Positions 29,226 through 41,652 of a stretch of DNA of 64,000 nt are shown here, piece by piece. Numbering within the stretch: position 1 is the stretch's first letter; every line of letters begins with the position of its first letter. The position numbers and the translations under genes are program-made. This DNA is from Pseudomonas sp. Fl4BN1. GTDB lineage: Bacteria > Pseudomonadota > Gammaproteobacteria > Pseudomonadales > Pseudomonadaceae. The stretch covers positions 1-64,000 of the forward strand of contig NZ_JAAARM010000032.1 in the NCBI RefSeq assembly GCF_009908285.1, written 5' to 3'. The notes below the pieces were generated by a model. That model saw nothing but the letters and a program-made list of their open reading frames with translations. It searched no databases and had not been told where the DNA came from.

Positions 29226-29565
29226 GAGAAGCCTGATTCCTTTTTCTGGTGAAACTTCGTCACATCCATATGGGACGAACGAAGCTCGCCGCTGCAGGCC
29301 TAGTGCCCTGCACCGACTTACGACAAATCAACAAGTTGTGCCATGGATTTGCGCAGTAAAGACGGCCGCATCGGACCGCCTTGGAAACCGCCGGATGTTA
29401 TCACAATCGCCGCCACGCACCTATCCCTCTGACGGGCATGGAACATAGTTAGTTGACCGGTGACAGCCTGATAAGGGACGAGAGAGGCTCAGAGGACAAA
29501 TTCGCACGCATTCAGGTGTTTTTTACTGACCAGGCGGCGTTCGTTGGAAGCCATCGTCGATGACC
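29226..29565. other. gyrA upstream region
   Basis: 340 bp between the gyrA start and the mtnA stop, both on the minus strand. It must hold the gyrA promoter and the mtnA 3' end. No gene, strong hairpin or clear -35/-10 pair was recognised. Confidence 0.5.
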
Positions 29566-34684: not shown

Positions 34685-35611
34685 ATGAAAACACCGACCC
34701 AGACCAACGCAATTGACTTCGACAGCGCCAAATTGCAGCGCCTGGGCTTTGGCCAGCAGTCGCCACTGATCAGACAGCCCGTCAGCCTCGGACAATTGCG
34801 CCAGCAGATGGGACTGCAGTTGCAGACCAGCCTTGAGCCACAGCGCATCCTCGGCCTGTTCTTTCGTGAGGTTCAACGCTTGGTACCGCTCGACGCACTG
34901 TTCTACAAGCACGCGCCGAGTGATCTGCGTCTGGAGTTCGGTCAACGCGGACACCACTCCATCAGCTATCGCCTCAGCCACGAAGGCGAACCGATGGGTG
35001 AACTGGTCTTCCGTCGCAACCAACGTTTCAGCGATTCAGAACAGGGTTATCTGGAGTCACTGCTGTCAACCCTGCTGTACCCAATGCGCAACGCGCTCTT
35101 GTACCGTGCCGCCACTCGCAGCGCCCTGCGCGACCCACTGACCGACACTGGCAACCGCATTGCCATGGATCAGACCCTGGAACGGGAAATCGAAATGGCC
35201 CAGCGTCACCTGCATCCGCTGTCGCTGCTGATGCTGGACATTGACCACTTCAAGCGCATCAACGATAACCACGGCCACAGCGCTGGCGACGAAGTACTCA
35301 AAGCAGTTGCCGCCTCGATCAAGGAACAGTTGCGCAACGTCGATATGGTGTTTCGTTTTGGCGGGGAAGAGTTCCTGATCCTGCTTTCCAACACCGGCCG
35401 CGACGCTGCAGCGATGGTTGGCGAACGCCTGCGGCATGCCACCCAGGCCCGGGAGTACTGGGCTGATGGCAACTTGATCGAACTTACGGTGAGCCTGGGC
35501 TGCTCGACCCTTTTGCCGGGGGAATCTTCGGAGAGTCTGTTGCGTCGCGCCGACAGCGCACTGTATGTAGCCAAGCGCGAGGGGCGCAATCGCCTGGCAA
35601 TGGCGGGTTAG
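34685..35611 (+). CDS. Diguanylate cyclase (GGDEF)
   Basis: 308-aa enzyme making cyclic di-GMP from GTP. The N-terminal ~140 residues look like a cytosolic GAF-type sensor without membrane helices. The GGDEF domain starts near 145 (RSALRDPLTDTGNR). The active site is intact, FGGEEF (226-230), and the inhibitory I-site RNVD (217-220) is five residues before it, so product feedback is expected. It corresponds in type and place after ubiG-mupP-SDR to PA3177 of P. aeruginosa. It converges on undA. Confidence 0.92.
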   Translation: MKTPTQTNAIDFDSAKLQRLGFGQQSPLIRQPVSLGQLRQQMGLQLQTSLEPQRILGLFFREVQRLVPLDALFYKHAPSDLRLEFGQRGHHSISYRLSHEGEPMGELVFRRNQRFSDSEQGYLESLLSTLLYPMRNALLYRAATRSALRDPLTDTGNRIAMDQTLEREIEMAQRHLHPLSLLMLDIDHFKRINDNHGHSAGDEVLKAVAASIKEQLRNVDMVFRFGGEEFLILLSNTGRDAAAMVGERLRHATQAREYWADGNLIELTVSLGCSTLLPGESSESLLRRADSALYVAKREGRNRLAMAG

Positions 35612-35705
35612 ACACCGAACCCCGCCTCAGCAGATCATTCACGGGCAACCCACCGACACAAACGTCAACCGCTTGAGGCAATCGAGCAGCCCGCAAACCC
35701 CAGCC

Positions 35706-36491
35706 CTATCCCTCAGCCAACGCCAGGCGCTCGCGGGTCACGGTGGTCTTTTCCTGTTGCATGCAGCGCTCCAGGAACAGGTACATATAGTCATAGCTCT
35801 TGCAGATGGCCTGGCGCAATTCGGCCTGCAAGGCCTTGCTCGGGCTCAACCCAGCCAGGGTAACGATGATTTCCAGCGCTTCCCAGGGATGTGCATCATC
35901 GTACTGCGCATGCATCTTCAGCCATTTCATGGCGCGCTTGCGGTCTTCTTCCGGAAATGACGCGGCATAAATGCCATTGGAGCACACCAGGGCCGACCAT
36001 TCGCCCGTCGCCCCTTCGATTGCGTAATTGGTGGCTGCGATGGCCACGATCAGCGAGTCCGCCGAACTGGTGTGCCAGCACCAATGGCTCAGTGCGTGCA
36101 ACTCTGGCGCTACCTGCTGTGCCTGCAGGTCTTCCAGGGTCACGCCATGAGCCCGACTCCAATGCACCCAGTAATCCGCATGATTGAGCTCAACCCGAAT
36201 ATTGCGCATCAACCAGCGGCGCGCCATGTCCTCGCCGGGATGACGGGCAAAGCGGGTCTTCGTCAGGTTTTGTGCCATGTACAGGGCAAATTGCTCAACC
36301 ACCGGCCAGCCGCCGATCAAGTACTGACGCATGACTTTGGCGCTGAGCTTGTTATCGCGCATGCGCTGGTACAGCTCATGCTCGACCACGCGGCGCTTGC
36401 TCTCGCTGCAGTCCTGGATCAGTTGCTGGGTCCAGGCGGGGTAACTGGCAGCTTCCATGAGCGGGCCGGTTCGGCTGAATGTGTCGATCAC
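35706..36491 (-). CDS. undA: UndA, medium-chain fatty acid decarboxylase forming 1-undecene
   Basis: 261-aa cytosolic non-heme iron oxidase of the heme-oxygenase-like (TenA-fold) group. UndA of P. protegens Pf-5, also 261 aa, turns lauric acid plus O2 into the volatile 1-undecene. The published iron ligands E101, H104 and H194 fall exactly in place (ELNHADYW; KMHAQYDDAH), and E159, D198 and H201 complete a diiron-type set. The start is a GTG at 36489-36491 with AAGGAG 7 bp upstream; a longer frame to 36593 overlaps the GGDEF-EAL gene. It sits 44 bp behind that gene on the same strand, so the two are probably cotranscribed. Databases often list it as TenA-type regulator. Confidence 0.9.
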   Translation of the reverse strand: MIDTFSRTGPLMEAASYPAWTQQLIQDCSESKRRVVEHELYQRMRDNKLSAKVMRQYLIGGWPVVEQFALYMAQNLTKTRFARHPGEDMARRWLMRNIRVELNHADYWVHWSRAHGVTLEDLQAQQVAPELHALSHWCWHTSSADSLIVAIAATNYAIEGATGEWSALVCSNGIYAASFPEEDRKRAMKWLKMHAQYDDAHPWEALEIIVTLAGLSPSKALQAELRQAICKSYDYMYLFLERCMQQEKTTVTRERLALAEG

Positions 36492-36535
36492 TGTCGGGCT
36501 CCTTTTGATTGTGATGTACGGATCCAAAAGAGGTT

Positions 36536-38995
36536 TCAACGGAACGTGCCGGGCGCCTTGAATAACAGGGGCTGTGGTCGCACGGGTCGACACTGCAGAC
36601 TGTCACAGGTGAACAATTGCGGGCGTTCAATAATGTAGCCTTGAGCATAATCCACACCGATCTCAAGCAAGGCCTGCTCGATCTGCGGCGTTTCAACAAA
36701 CTCGGCAATCGTGCGCTTACCCATGACATGCCCGATGTGGTTGATCACCTCGACCATGGCGCGGTTAATCGGGTCGTCCAGCATATCCTTTACGAAACTT
36801 CCATCGATCTTGAGGAAGTCTACAGGCAAATGTTTGAGATAAGCGAACGACGACATTCCTGCACAAAAGTCATCCAGAGAGAAACGACAACCTAAACCCT
36901 TGAGTTCATTTATAAAACGGATTGCACTGCCCAAGTTGGCGATTGCACTGGTTTCAGTAATTTCAAAACAGATCATCTTCGGCGGCACGCCATAGGCGAC
37001 AAACTGCTCCCTCAGGAAGCCGAGGAACTCATCATCGCCAATGGTGATGCCTGAGAGGTTGATCGCACACGTCGCCATCGGCCCTTCGCGACCCTCTTCG
37101 ATGCACTGGGCGATGATCTTGAATACGTTTTGTACCACCCAGCGATCCAGGGACGTCATCAAGCCGTAACGCTCAGCCGCCGGAATGAAGCTGTCCGGCA
37201 AGATCATCCTGCCGGCCTCGTCATGCAGGCGCAGAAGAATCTCGACATGGCCACCATCGTGTTCGACGTGGCCCAAGGCAGTAATTTCCTGGGAATAGAG
37301 ACAAAAGCGGTTTTCCTCGAGGGCCATGTGCAGGCGCTGGACCCAGGCCATCTCGCCAAACCGCAGGGAAAGCTCGGAGTCGTCGGCATGATAAACCTGA
37401 ACCCGGTTGCGGCCTTTTTCCTTGGCCATGTAGCAGGCCATATCCGCCGCTCGCAGCGAAGCCTCGAGGGTGGTTGGAGTCTGGGCGACATGCACCAGGC
37501 CAATACTCACGGTGGTCACGAAGGGCCGGCCCTTCCAGACAAAATGCAGGTTCTGCACCGTTTGGCGCAGCCCTTCGGCAATCTTCTCAGCCGCCTCCGG
37601 CGAGCAGTTCTCCAAGAGAATGCCGAACTCGTCCCCCCCCAGTCGGGCCAGAGTGTCGCCTTCACGTAACCCCGACTGCAGCAGCGCACAAATATGCCGC
37701 AGCAACTCGTCCCCGGCGGCATGGCCGCAAGTGTCGTTGACCAGCTTGAACTGGTCCAGGTCCAGGAACATCAACGCATGCCTGGCTGGCTGGCGCACCA
37801 GACTGTGCAGGGCTTGCTCCAGGCGGAACTCGAACTCCCGGCGATTGGCCAGGCCAGTCAAGGCATCGTGGGTCGCCTGCCAGGATAGATTGGCAATGTA
37901 TTGCCGCTCTTGGGTCATGTCATGCAGTACCAGCACCGTGCCACTGACTTTCCCCGCATTGCGGATCGGTGCACCTACCAAGGTCACCGACACCGTGCTG
38001 CCATCCAACCGCTGGATCAGCTTGGAATGCTCGCTGCCACCGCTGAGCTGGCCGCTGAGGATGTGCTCAATCAAGGTGAAACCGTCGGCCTGGGCGTTTT
38101 CATCCAACAGATTGAACAGAGCCGCCAGGGGCAGCCCCACGGCCTGCTCGGCCTTCCAGCGAGTCAGCTCTTCAGCCGCCGGGTTCATGTAGGCGATAGC
38201 ACCCTCGACATCGGTGGTGATCACCCCGTCGCCAATGGACTGCAAGGTGATCTGCGCGCGCTCCTTCTCCAGTTGCAAGGCATCGGCAAAGGCATGGCGC
38301 TGGGCCAGCAACTTGTGGGTACGCAGCAAGGCCAAGGCAATCAGGATCAGCGCTGTGGCCAGGTTGGTCACCAGCAATAGTCGCAGGATGACTCGCGAGC
38401 CTTCGCCCAAGGCATCGCTGAACGCCTTGGCGGCCGGAGTAACACCGTCGTTGATGGCAAATATCTGGTTTTTCCAACGCTGCACATCGGCTTCGCTGGC
38501 ACTGTTGCTACTGATCCCCTGATGCATCTCCCGAGCCACGGTATCCAGTTGCAGCAGGTAGCCATCCCCCACGGTCCAGAGGTCGATGGCTTTTTCCAGG
38601 TAGCTGAAATGACGGAAATTAAGGTACAGCCAGATCAGGCTAGAAACGTCATCCGGGTGGTTGCCGCCCTTGAGGATGCCCTGGCGCGCAGCGTCCAGAT
38701 CCGGTGGCCGACGATCCAGGGCCACTCGCAGCTCATGGCCGCCCTGAGGCACGGCAATTGCGTTCTGGTACTTGAGGAAAGCCCCCTCATCGCGACTGTC
38801 GGCATACAGGTTGAGGTAGTAGATGGCGTCTTTCTGGCCTTTGGACCACAGGCTTTCACCGGCAACATAGCCGCGTACTGCCGACAGGACATACAAGCTG
38901 AGGCCGCCCAACAGCGCTTGAAATAACACCACGGCAATAAAGGGCCAGACGATGCCCAACAACCGCGGCGTTGCGAAAGTCCGCTTTTGCTTCAT
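36536..38995 (-). CDS. rbdA: RbdA-like PAS-GGDEF-EAL membrane protein
   Basis: 819-aa inner-membrane c-di-GMP enzyme. Order: TM helix about 11-38, periplasmic sensor to about 200, TM about 204-224, PAS about 245-365, GGDEF about 375-540, EAL about 555-805. GGDEF is intact (453-457) with I-site REGD (444-447). The EAL signature reads EIL (585-587) and loop 6 reads DDFCAG instead of DDFGAG, but FEITET, KIDGSFVKDM and AEFVE are kept, so phosphodiesterase activity is likely yet not certain. Neighbours (ABC exporter upstream, undA downstream) match the PA0860-PA0862 order, where PA0861 is the biofilm-dispersal regulator RbdA. ATG at 38995 follows AAGGA. Confidence 0.87.
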   Translation of the reverse strand: MKQKRTFATPRLLGIVWPFIAVVLFQALLGGLSLYVLSAVRGYVAGESLWSKGQKDAIYYLNLYADSRDEGAFLKYQNAIAVPQGGHELRVALDRRPPDLDAARQGILKGGNHPDDVSSLIWLYLNFRHFSYLEKAIDLWTVGDGYLLQLDTVAREMHQGISSNSASEADVQRWKNQIFAINDGVTPAAKAFSDALGEGSRVILRLLLVTNLATALILIALALLRTHKLLAQRHAFADALQLEKERAQITLQSIGDGVITTDVEGAIAYMNPAAEELTRWKAEQAVGLPLAALFNLLDENAQADGFTLIEHILSGQLSGGSEHSKLIQRLDGSTVSVTLVGAPIRNAGKVSGTVLVLHDMTQERQYIANLSWQATHDALTGLANRREFEFRLEQALHSLVRQPARHALMFLDLDQFKLVNDTCGHAAGDELLRHICALLQSGLREGDTLARLGGDEFGILLENCSPEAAEKIAEGLRQTVQNLHFVWKGRPFVTTVSIGLVHVAQTPTTLEASLRAADMACYMAKEKGRNRVQVYHADDSELSLRFGEMAWVQRLHMALEENRFCLYSQEITALGHVEHDGGHVEILLRLHDEAGRMILPDSFIPAAERYGLMTSLDRWVVQNVFKIIAQCIEEGREGPMATCAINLSGITIGDDEFLGFLREQFVAYGVPPKMICFEITETSAIANLGSAIRFINELKGLGCRFSLDDFCAGMSSFAYLKHLPVDFLKIDGSFVKDMLDDPINRAMVEVINHIGHVMGKRTIAEFVETPQIEQALLEIGVDYAQGYIIERPQLFTCDSLQCRPVRPQPLLFKAPGTFR

Positions 38996-39203: not shown

Positions 39204-41024
39204 CTATCGAACCTGCTGCAAATGCCCGTACAGCTTGGCGTAAAGACCACCATCGGCAATCAACTGCTGGTGGTCGCCATCTTCGGCAATCTGTCCACCA
39301 TCGAACACCAAAACCCGATCAGCCTGTTTTACCGCCGACAGGCGATGAGCAATGATCAGCGTAGTCCGCCCACGCAGAAAACGCGTCAATGCCTGATGCA
39401 GGTTGTATTCGGTGGCCGCATCCAGGGCGGACGTGGCTTCATCGAGGATCACCACCTTGGGCTCGGCCAGGACCATTCGCGCAATCGCCAGGCGCTGGCG
39501 CTGTCCGCCTGAAAGGCGCACGCCGGAACGGCCAACCACGGTGTCCAGGCCCTGAGGCAACGCCCTGACCGTGGCGTCCAACTGAGCAATTTCCAGGGCC
39601 TGCCAGCAAGCGCCATCATCGCGCTCACGGCCCATGGTCAGGTTGGCGCGAACAGTGTCGTTGAACAGTGCCGGATGCTGCAGCACCACGGCGACGTTTT
39701 CCCGCACCGTTTCCAAGCCGATCTCCTGCTGGGTCGCACCACCAAAACGGATCACCCCGGTCTGCGGCGTGTACAACCCCAGCAACAGCTGCACCAGGGT
39801 GCTCTTGCCACCGCCACTGGCGCCGACAATCGCCACCTTCTCGCCAGGAGCAATGGACAGGTTCATGTTGTCCAGCACTCGCTCGTCGCCGTAACCGAAG
39901 CTCAGCCCACGCACTTCGATACCAACGGTGTCTCGCCCCTGGAAGGGATCCACGCCACCGGGGTATTGCGGCTCATCGGCCCGCGCCAGCAACTCGTTGA
40001 TCCGAGTCAGGGCTCCACCCGCCGCGTAATAGGCGTATTGCAGATTCAACAACTGCTCCACCGGACCGATCATGAACCACAGGTAACTGAACACGGCGAG
40101 CATCTGGCCGATCGACAGATCGGAGAACAGCACCGTGAGCATGGCGGCGGCGCGAAAAATATCGATGCCGAACTGGAACAGCAAGCCACTGGCCCGTCCC
40201 GAAGCGTCGCTTTTCCACTGCGAGGCCACTGCGTAATCCCGCACCTCCTCGGCACGCTGTCCCAGGCGCCCAAGAAAGTAGCCCTGGCGATTGCCGGCAC
40301 GAACTTCCTGAATAGCCTCCAAGGTCTCGGTCAACGCCTGGGTAAACCGCGAAGTGCTGTCGTTTTCCAGCTTCTTCAGGTGCTTGACCCGCTTGCCCAA
40401 CTGCACCGTGGCAAAGATCACCAGGGGGTTGAACAGCAGAATCAGCAAAGCCAGCTTCCAGTGCATCCACATCAGGATGCCCGCGGTCCCCACCAGGGTC
40501 AGCATGGCGACCAGGAAGCGGCTCAGGGTTTCACCAACGAATTTGTCCACCGTGTCCAGGTCAGTGACCAGGTGAGTGGTGACCGTGCCGCCCCCCAGGC
40601 TTTCGTACTCACCCAGGGAGATACGCTTGAGTCGCTCGATCAGGCGCACGCGGATCCGATAGACGATGTCCTTGGCCAGGCCGGCGAACAACCGCGCCTG
40701 AATCACGTTGAACACCAAGGCTGCGCTTCGCAGGATCAACGTCAGCAGCAGCATCAGTCCGATATAGCCGGCGGCCTGGTGCCAACCCTCAGGCAGAAAG
40801 CGGTTCATCACTTGCAGTGCAGCGTCGCCTCGGCCCAGCAACACTTCGTCCACCAGCAAGGGCAACAGCAGCGGGATAGGTACACTGCACAGGGTAGCCA
40901 GCACGGCTACGCCGTTGGCGATCCACAGTGACTTCCGGTGATGCAGGGCCAGGCGGCGAATTTCTGTCCAGCTCAGACGATCAACCCGTTTGCCAGGAGC
41001 ATTTGAATCAACCGGGTCAGGCAC
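39204..41024 (-). CDS. MsbA-like ABC exporter (fused permease-ATPase)
   Basis: 606-aa half-transporter of the B-subfamily exporter type. The N-terminal ~320 residues hold six membrane helices; the ATPase domain has Walker A GASGGGKST, signature LSGGQRQRLAIARM and Walker B VVILDEATSALD. Substrate unknown; likely a lipid-like or amphiphilic compound by family. A GTG start at 41022-41024 overlaps the end of the dsbA-like gene, so the two are coupled. No ATG start gives a better fit. Confidence 0.87.
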   Translation of the reverse strand: MPDPVDSNAPGKRVDRLSWTEIRRLALHHRKSLWIANGVAVLATLCSVPIPLLLPLLVDEVLLGRGDAALQVMNRFLPEGWHQAAGYIGLMLLLTLILRSAALVFNVIQARLFAGLAKDIVYRIRVRLIERLKRISLGEYESLGGGTVTTHLVTDLDTVDKFVGETLSRFLVAMLTLVGTAGILMWMHWKLALLILLFNPLVIFATVQLGKRVKHLKKLENDSTSRFTQALTETLEAIQEVRAGNRQGYFLGRLGQRAEEVRDYAVASQWKSDASGRASGLLFQFGIDIFRAAAMLTVLFSDLSIGQMLAVFSYLWFMIGPVEQLLNLQYAYYAAGGALTRINELLARADEPQYPGGVDPFQGRDTVGIEVRGLSFGYGDERVLDNMNLSIAPGEKVAIVGASGGGKSTLVQLLLGLYTPQTGVIRFGGATQQEIGLETVRENVAVVLQHPALFNDTVRANLTMGRERDDGACWQALEIAQLDATVRALPQGLDTVVGRSGVRLSGGQRQRLAIARMVLAEPKVVILDEATSALDAATEYNLHQALTRFLRGRTTLIIAHRLSAVKQADRVLVFDGGQIAEDGDHQQLIADGGLYAKLYGHLQQVR

Positions 41025-41652
41025 AGGCAGCACGCTCCAGCCAACGGCCGAGCAACGGTGACAGCTCACCGAGTGGCTGATAGCCGTTGGTCAGCAACGC
41101 CAGTTGGCCATTGCGCTCCGCCAGCAAGGTCGGAAACCCAGCGATACCCAGGTCCTGGACCCAGGTAAAGTCCGCCGCGGTGGCGGCGTGCTGCTCGGCC
41201 CGATCGAAAGCTTCGGCGAACTCGATGCGCGGCACCCCGGCTTGTTCAGCCAACTCCACCAACACACTGGCCAGCGTGACATCACGGCCTTCGACATAGA
41301 ACGCCCGCTGGATCAGTCCCAGCAGTTTCCAGGCACAGTCAGATGCCAGACCACGAGCGGTAACGATGGCTCGACAGGCCGGCTCGGTGTCATAGACAAA
41401 CCCATCGGGCAAGGCGCCGTCGAAGGTGAATGGTTGACCGGTGGCCTGATGCACGGCCTGCCAATGCTCAAGGATATAGCGCCGGGTGTTGGGTTCCAGG
41501 GCCGCACCACTCCCCGTGCGCAAGCCGCCCACCACCAGATGCAATTCAACGCCGGCAGCCTGCGCCTGATCTGCCAGGGCCTGGGCCACGGGCGCGAAGC
41601 CCCAGCACCATGAACACATCGGGTCCATCACATAGAGCAGGCGGGCAGACAT
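41017..41652 (-). CDS. DsbA-family (FrnE/2-hydroxychromene isomerase-like) thioredoxin-fold protein
   Basis: 211-aa protein without signal peptide, so cytosolic. It has a thioredoxin-like fold with CSWC at residues 13-16 (MDPMCSWCWGF) and the cis-proline part GIAGFPTLL. This is the DsbA family, near FrnE-type proteins of unknown target; a redox role is inferred. It begins 3 bp after trhO and its end overlaps the ABC gene start, giving a trhO-dsbA-ABC operon. Confidence 0.85.
   Translation of the reverse strand: MSARLLYVMDPMCSWCWGFAPVAQALADQAQAAGVELHLVVGGLRTGSGAALEPNTRRYILEHWQAVHQATGQPFTFDGALPDGFVYDTEPACRAIVTARGLASDCAWKLLGLIQRAFYVEGRDVTLASVLVELAEQAGVPRIEFAEAFDRAEQHAATAADFTWVQDLGIAGFPTLLAERNGQLALLTNGYQPLGELSPLLGRWLERAACA

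Follow-up and report, generated by a model that had tools for sequence, protein, structure and literature searches.

Genomic linkage of UndA-family oxidases with c-di-GMP enzymes within and beyond Pseudomonas

In various Pseudomonas genomes, undA has been described as always associated with rbdA (Rui et al. 2014, as cited in PMC10614000; papers given here by PMC accession are cited from excerpts). Deletion of undA in P. fluorescens MFE01 impairs biofilm maturation, wild-type volatiles restore it, and work on RbdA is announced as planned (PMC10614000). For RbdA of P. aeruginosa, a phosphodiesterase activity on cyclic diguanylate (c-di-GMP) that promotes dispersal has been reported (PMC11372557). 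Here we compare with these systems an undA-rbdA pair in a 64,000-nucleotide stretch of Pseudomonas sp. Fl4BN1 (contig NZ_JAAARM010000032.1, positions 1 to 64,000; hereafter the window). Two observations are added: UndA-family genes are linked to c-di-GMP genes beyond the Pseudomonadaceae, with other gene orders and other partners, and rbdA contains a block constrained at synonymous sites. Neither was found in searches of the open-licence PubMed Central literature. Our reading, at a probability of about 0.6, is that undA works together with rbdA as a functional pair that switches alkene production within a biofilm/c-di-GMP programme, and that such partnerships recur in the UndA family.

The undA-rbdA pair in the window and across Pseudomonas

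The first-pass annotation of this DNA had described a GTG-started undA of 261 aa with named iron ligands, lying 44 bp behind an rbdA-like PAS-GGDEF-EAL gene on the same strand with no terminator between the two, and all of this was borne out by the gene call, coordinates, domains, ligand check, Protein Data Bank (PDB) matches and a terminator pattern scan. The gene undA (35706-36491, minus strand), single-copy in the source genome, encodes by homology a heme-oxygenase-like dimetal oxidase, and the protein is thus a predicted lauric acid decarboxylase making 1-undecene. All six metal ligands are present (E101, H104, E159, H194, D198 and H201), and the best PDB matches, both covering residues 2-261, are 4wwj, entered as a TENA/THI-4 family protein (E = 2e-176), and 6p5q, entered as UndA (E = 4e-176). 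Upstream on the same strand, the rbdA orthologue (PA0861; 36536-38995, minus) encodes 819 aa, in which two predicted membrane helices flank a periplasmic domain that is followed by PAS, GGDEF and EAL domains; its best PDB match is 5xgb (‘Uncharacterized protein PA0861’), over RbdA residues 236-795. The 44-bp gap (36492-36535, minus) contains a Shine-Dalgarno sequence rated good, AAAAGGAG, at 36499-36506, and no terminator-like site was detected in it by the pattern scan. A terminator-like hairpin is located just past undA (35665-35685, minus), in a region with 4 such sites in total against 3.8 expected by chance.

The synteny survey that the first-pass annotation had proposed was run on samples of the genus and the family, which overlap in some genomes. 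Of the 249 genus genomes, 206 have undA, and every one of these is among the 217 in which the RbdA N-domain occurs, leaving 11 genomes with rbdA and without undA. The family sample (198 genomes) gave the same nesting, with 39 undA genomes all contained in 54 with the RbdA N-domain; those with rbdA and without undA are G311, G342, G403 and 12 genomes of another genus (G and L numbers denote genomes and loci of the survey). The reverse case, undA without rbdA, did not occur in either sample. When read directly from sequence, rbdA lay upstream of undA on the same strand in 58/58 loci (the contig ends inside rbdA in L030), and a second, partly overlapping set gave the same order and strand in 77/77, with a gap ranging from -4 to 81 nt in 76 and a broken rbdA frame in the remaining one (G418). 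The adjacency is far beyond chance. Two loci show decay: in L150 (from G418) the rbdA frame is broken early, with undA and later rbdA sequence still downstream, and in L074 (G108) the rbdA frame is broken and undA absent, with the adjacent cyclase and YciK genes kept, which resembles loss of the pair.

UndA relatives and their c-di-GMP partners outside the Pseudomonadaceae

Samples of the class (369 genomes) and phylum (398 genomes) contained six UndA-like matches beyond the Pseudomonadaceae, and in all four with a readable neighbourhood the gene adjoins an rbdA-type or GGDEF-EAL gene. In G696 and G995 undA is followed by an rbdA-type gene, the opposite of the Pseudomonas order (the G696 contig ends before any GGDEF, and the visible part is an RbdA-like N-terminus); in G976 it is followed by a GAF-PAS-GGDEF-EAL gene; and in G646 (gamma proteobacterium HTCC5015, locus L186) a membrane GGDEF-EAL gene comes first, with undA 22 bp on. 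The two uncounted matches are G748, which a contig end truncates and whose 6.5 kb of upstream sequence contains no c-di-GMP-type gene, and G742, which matches weakly and has a stop inside its frame. The orders of G646 and G696 comprise 4 and 2 genomes, too few for further cases. Named genomes were also scanned, with a query headed by the HTCC5015 protein; at least 527 confirmed UndA-like loci were obtained, and among the best 80 a GGDEF gene lies within 700 bp in 56 and in none of the other 24. Linkage was seen in Acinetobacter (38/42), Alkanindiges (3/3), other Moraxellaceae (4/4), Agitococcus (1/1), Alloalcanivorax (2/5), Alcanivorax (2/13), Alcanivoracaceae (1/2), HTCC5015 (1/1), Marinobacter sp. 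SS21 (1/1) and others (3/8). Moraxellaceae rows, and a few from elsewhere, have as partner a diguanylate cyclase divergent from the UndA-like gene (the pair in L237 was called overlapping under a longest-start rule). A GGDEF-EAL gene follows the UndA-like gene on the same strand in L200, L201 and L205, and precedes it in HTCC5015 and Marinobacter sp. SS21.

The six metal ligands are complete in 160/161 aligned UndA-family rows, the window and Pseudomonas rows included; the exception, L265, is a short or truncated reading that lacks two. The one Acinetobacter protein tested against the PDB (L226) matched 3oql (E = 4e-43), 4wwj (E = 3e-40) and 6p5q (E = 5e-40), and UndA is by far its nearest solved structure, the next being CT610 (presumably CADD) with E = 0.004. 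On the partner side, Pfam was run on part of the proteins (L186/L086, L187, L200, L201, L204, L206, L226, L259, L266 and L267), and a GGDEF/EAL motif check covered 18 partner or window proteins. GGEEF is kept in 9/9 divergent-type cyclases checked. L267, L200, L201 and L205 keep EALLR and have no GGDEF pattern match, the HTCC5015 partner has SSDEF, and the Marinobacter partner matched neither pattern, yet Pfam detects both domains. The sensor parts differ between partners and include a periplasmic domain, membrane helices and GAF-PAS. The recurring element is the c-di-GMP-type domains and not one sensor, and because the partner proteins vary, the shared requirement seems to be local c-di-GMP turnover.

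In a quick tree of 97 rows the arrangements group by clade, and outside Pseudomonas 4/11 clades are linked. Pseudomonas was thinned to 19 hand-picked rows, of which 18 entered, and L265, L260, L202 and L227 (short or cut) were left out. Deep branches are unsure, with a support of 31 for the grouping of HTCC5015 and Marinobacter. The genomes counted (19) hold 4-50 GGDEF genes each, which puts the chance of an immediate GGDEF neighbour at no more than about 2.6%; those of Acinetobacter and Alkanindiges hold 10-15. Four linked clades of 11 then have p of about 1.2e-4, or 0.0017 with the chance rate doubled, 0.0018 with one linked clade omitted and 0.012 with both changes, all of them rough values because the clades were drawn after the tree had been seen and because L239 and L258, which fall within the Acinetobacter clade and lack linkage, were not given separate clades.

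Several further features of these loci were recorded. A TgpA transglutaminase gene precedes the UndA-like gene in both the unlinked L189 and the linked L200 (Pfam; Alcanivorax/Alloalcanivorax), and in L204 an open reading frame of similar size does so. UndA-like genes also come from metagenome bins that carry the labels Omnitrophota, Nitrospina, Nitrospirales and Pedobacter (L253, L262, L265 and L206), for which transfer and binning error are both possible.

A constrained block in rbdA and the control of undA

A block nearly without synonymous change is located at 36764-36835 (minus), covering rbdA codons 721-744, about 270-345 bp ahead of undA. It was found in a subgroup of 33 loci (the window and L094-L125), labelled ‘P. 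fluorescens-like’ from closeness to the window. Synonymous difference in the lowest 24-codon window was 0.098, compared with a gene mean of 0.412 and a next lowest value elsewhere of 0.312, and 0/20000 column permutations went as low. In the same 33 loci undA itself has no comparable window (lowest 0.288). In 20 P. aeruginosa-like loci the rbdA minimum falls at the same codons (0.091 vs 0.251), while in a 15-locus subset of these it lay elsewhere, and 22 other Pseudomonas loci with the pair intact show no such constraint (z = -0.4). The block is probably a cis-element controlling at the DNA or RNA level, and perhaps, as a candidate, the promoter of undA.

Searches for a motif gave little to build on. 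No sigma-70 site was found in the block, the fold z-score was -0.1 with no covariation (the block windows fold best in consensus, as conserved windows do), and Rfam, searched to an E-value of 1, returned nothing. At the 3' end of the block, a weak match with 2 mismatches, TAAA-N15-CCCGATTA (36766-36792, minus), resembles what we take to be the FliA (sigma28) consensus. The match is a lead only, because the window has 5 FliA-like matches where 1.8 are expected and a P. aeruginosa fliA mutant is reported to show no change in rbdA (-1.05; PMC4866697). In P. fluorescens SBW25, undA is down 9.7-fold in a gacS mutant, with no Gac box found upstream of undA (PMC5114270), and for MFE01 the undA leader has been predicted to contain RsmA sites (PMC11841057). 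Together, the block and the gacS effect suggest that undA may also have its own control.

Other records touch the pair in SBW25. UndA (PFLU4307) has 6 counts in one pull-down column, apparently that of RimB, in a study of RimA/RimB/RimK (PMC4741518), and a fusion of PFLU4313 to PFLU4308 raised transcription of the latter 219-fold and produced wrinkly spreaders (PMC4395868). From its length and place, we infer that PFLU4308 is the rbdA of SBW25. An ‘iron-containing redox enzyme’ of P. alcaligenes induced by fungal exudates (PMC8304167) is encoded beside fatty-acid genes; it is at most a putative UndA and was not used.

Around the pair, a diguanylate cyclase gene with a GGEEF motif (34685-35611, plus) is convergent with undA. 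A homologue occurs within 1.5 kb downstream of undA in 36/58 undA loci, all 36 in the genus of the window, and undA therefore often has c-di-GMP genes on both sides. An MsbA-like ABC transporter gene (39204-41069, minus) lies upstream of rbdA on the same strand. Elsewhere in the window, at 29237-29323, the Rfam gyrA RNA motif RF01740 was matched with 81 bits.

Explanations for the linkage and comparison with known systems

In the functional pair that we propose, the UndA iron oxidase would turn lauric acid into volatile 1-undecene and, with a membrane enzyme of c-di-GMP turnover encoded alongside, alkene output would be switched within a biofilm/c-di-GMP programme. In Pseudomonas a single rbdA-undA transcript is possible, given the spacing and the lack of a detected terminator. 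In the subgroup of the window, undA probably has in addition a cis-element inside the end of rbdA, where the constraint is observed and the role conjectural. In several other Gammaproteobacteria the partnership would have been rebuilt with GGDEF-EAL proteins or pure cyclases, as seen in the gene linkage. The occurrence of UndA relatives beside different c-di-GMP genes in other bacteria makes a real working link more likely, and we judge it likely that the chemistry of the UndA family and c-di-GMP are functionally connected. The first-pass annotation had tied 1-undecene to biofilm dispersal signalling. The tie to biofilm signalling gains from the gene linkage, the published association and the ΔundA defect; for dispersal in particular the tie is conjectural, the published phenotype being biofilm maturation. 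The annotation knew of no established functional link between the two; the association and the ΔundA biofilm defect were already in print (PMC10614000).

Several points weigh against the functional pair. GGDEF genes are missing within 700 bp in 24/80 loci (best 80 of at least 527), including 11/13 named Alcanivorax, 3/5 Alloalcanivorax, 4/42 Acinetobacter and the deep rows L253, L262 and L265. Of these 24, L202 and L227 are truncated where their contigs end, and L204, L258 and L264 have a GGDEF gene 0.8-1.6 kb away; in the twelve Alcanivorax-type loci L188-L199 there is no GGDEF gene in the stretch examined. The HTCC5015 protein is 34% identical to the window UndA, and alkene production outside Pseudomonas is putative. 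The partners give no common direction of c-di-GMP change, because they comprise both pure cyclases and GGDEF-EAL proteins. Should the block be the undA promoter, the model of one rbdA-undA transcript would be weakened. Reasons of expression alone can preserve adjacency, and the excerpts of the literature found do not tie the rbdA and undA phenotypes to each other.

That last kind of explanation, in which both genes are wanted in late growth or biofilm and neither protein affects the other, is possible though somewhat doubtful. It accords with the separate papers that connect undA and rbdA each to biofilm (PMC10614000, PMC11372557), with the strong GacS effect on undA (PMC5114270) and with the variation of partner sensor parts between clades, but co-expression alone does not account for c-di-GMP proteins being the neighbours in every linked clade. 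A realistic prospect, if still short of even odds, is that undA is its own transcription unit behind rbdA, with a promoter in the block at 36764-36835 and Gac/Rsm or stationary-phase control. The depth of the synonymous minimum (0.098 vs 0.412, 0/20000 permutations), its recurrence at the same codons in the 20 P. aeruginosa-like loci, the 9.7-fold drop in the SBW25 gacS mutant (PMC5114270) and the RsmA sites predicted in the MFE01 leader (PMC11841057) all speak for this arrangement. They are offset by the 22 Pseudomonas loci that keep the pair with the block unconstrained, the displaced minimum in the 15-locus subset, the missing Gac box (PMC5114270) and the want of a convincing promoter motif or RNA covariation; readthrough, moreover, is compatible with a promoter inside rbdA.

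We consider it very unlikely that the pair is simply kept by descent and that the other linkages are coincidences in GGDEF-rich genomes. The arrangement does look inherited within each clade, the clades were delimited post hoc, and p rises to 0.012 without one linked clade and with a doubled chance rate; against this stand five arrangements with four partner types by sensor part, and the mere 10-15 GGDEF genes in the Acinetobacter and Alkanindiges genomes counted. Very unlikely, too, is the idea that the periplasmic hydrophobic pocket of RbdA binds 1-undecene or laurate, sets c-di-GMP breakdown and so closes a volatile loop. 1-Undecene is reported as a biofilm cue whose receptors are merely hypothesised (PMC10614000), and the RbdA cavity is modelled and hydrophobic, with the ligand unspecified (PMC11372557). 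PAS identity to the window is 46-57% in undA-less loci vs 54-62% in undA loci, at about 67-71% catalytic identity, a difference confounded by kinship (L150 and L074, below 700 aa, were dropped, and L085, L086, L088 and L089 left out). A receptor role is not supported, because the periplasmic domain, compared at equal catalytic divergence, is conserved to the same degree without and with undA (52-58% vs 52-59%); moreover, no similarity to that domain was detected in the sensor parts of other UndA relatives' partners, except the rbdA-type G696 and G995.

The window pair was already known. The linkage in other families makes of it more than a peculiarity of Pseudomonas, namely a functional link open to testing; it offers a way to find the missing components through which 1-undecene serves as a cue in biofilms, and it flags UndA-like enzymes still to be characterised in Acinetobacter, Alkanindiges, Alloalcanivorax and Marinobacter. 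The rbdA block is a concrete site at which to look for undA control. A broader proposal, which we regard as speculative and on balance unlikely, is that an UndA-family oxidase and its adjoining c-di-GMP enzyme are an ancient gammaproteobacterial signalling module. In it the oxidase would make the cue, a hydrocarbon or lipid, and the cyclase or phosphodiesterase would connect that cue with the choice for or against biofilm, the sensor part being freely exchanged among lineages. If true, the Acinetobacter and Alcanivorax relatives of UndA would make alkene-like cues too.

Compared with characterized proteins, the window UndA is near-identical in sequence to the UndA of 4wwj and 6p5q, the source strain of which we take to be P. 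protegens Pf-5; the six metal ligands are the same and no notable difference was found. The window RbdA has the same domain order as RbdA/PA0861 of P. aeruginosa (5xgb, 8pps) with an intact GGDEF motif, and its EAL-type site reads EILLR vs ELLLR in PA0861; the activity of the window protein is predicted. DtpC of Acinetobacter baumannii (PMC13232832) was considered as a relative and set aside from its description, not its sequence: the published residues E143, H153 and H232 and the katE operon do not fit the Acinetobacter UndA-like gene. The association of Rui et al. (2014) concerns the same two genes across Pseudomonas, of which the window pair is an ordinary example; the passage citing that work is silent on other families, gene orders and c-di-GMP partners, and it is these that the present survey adds.

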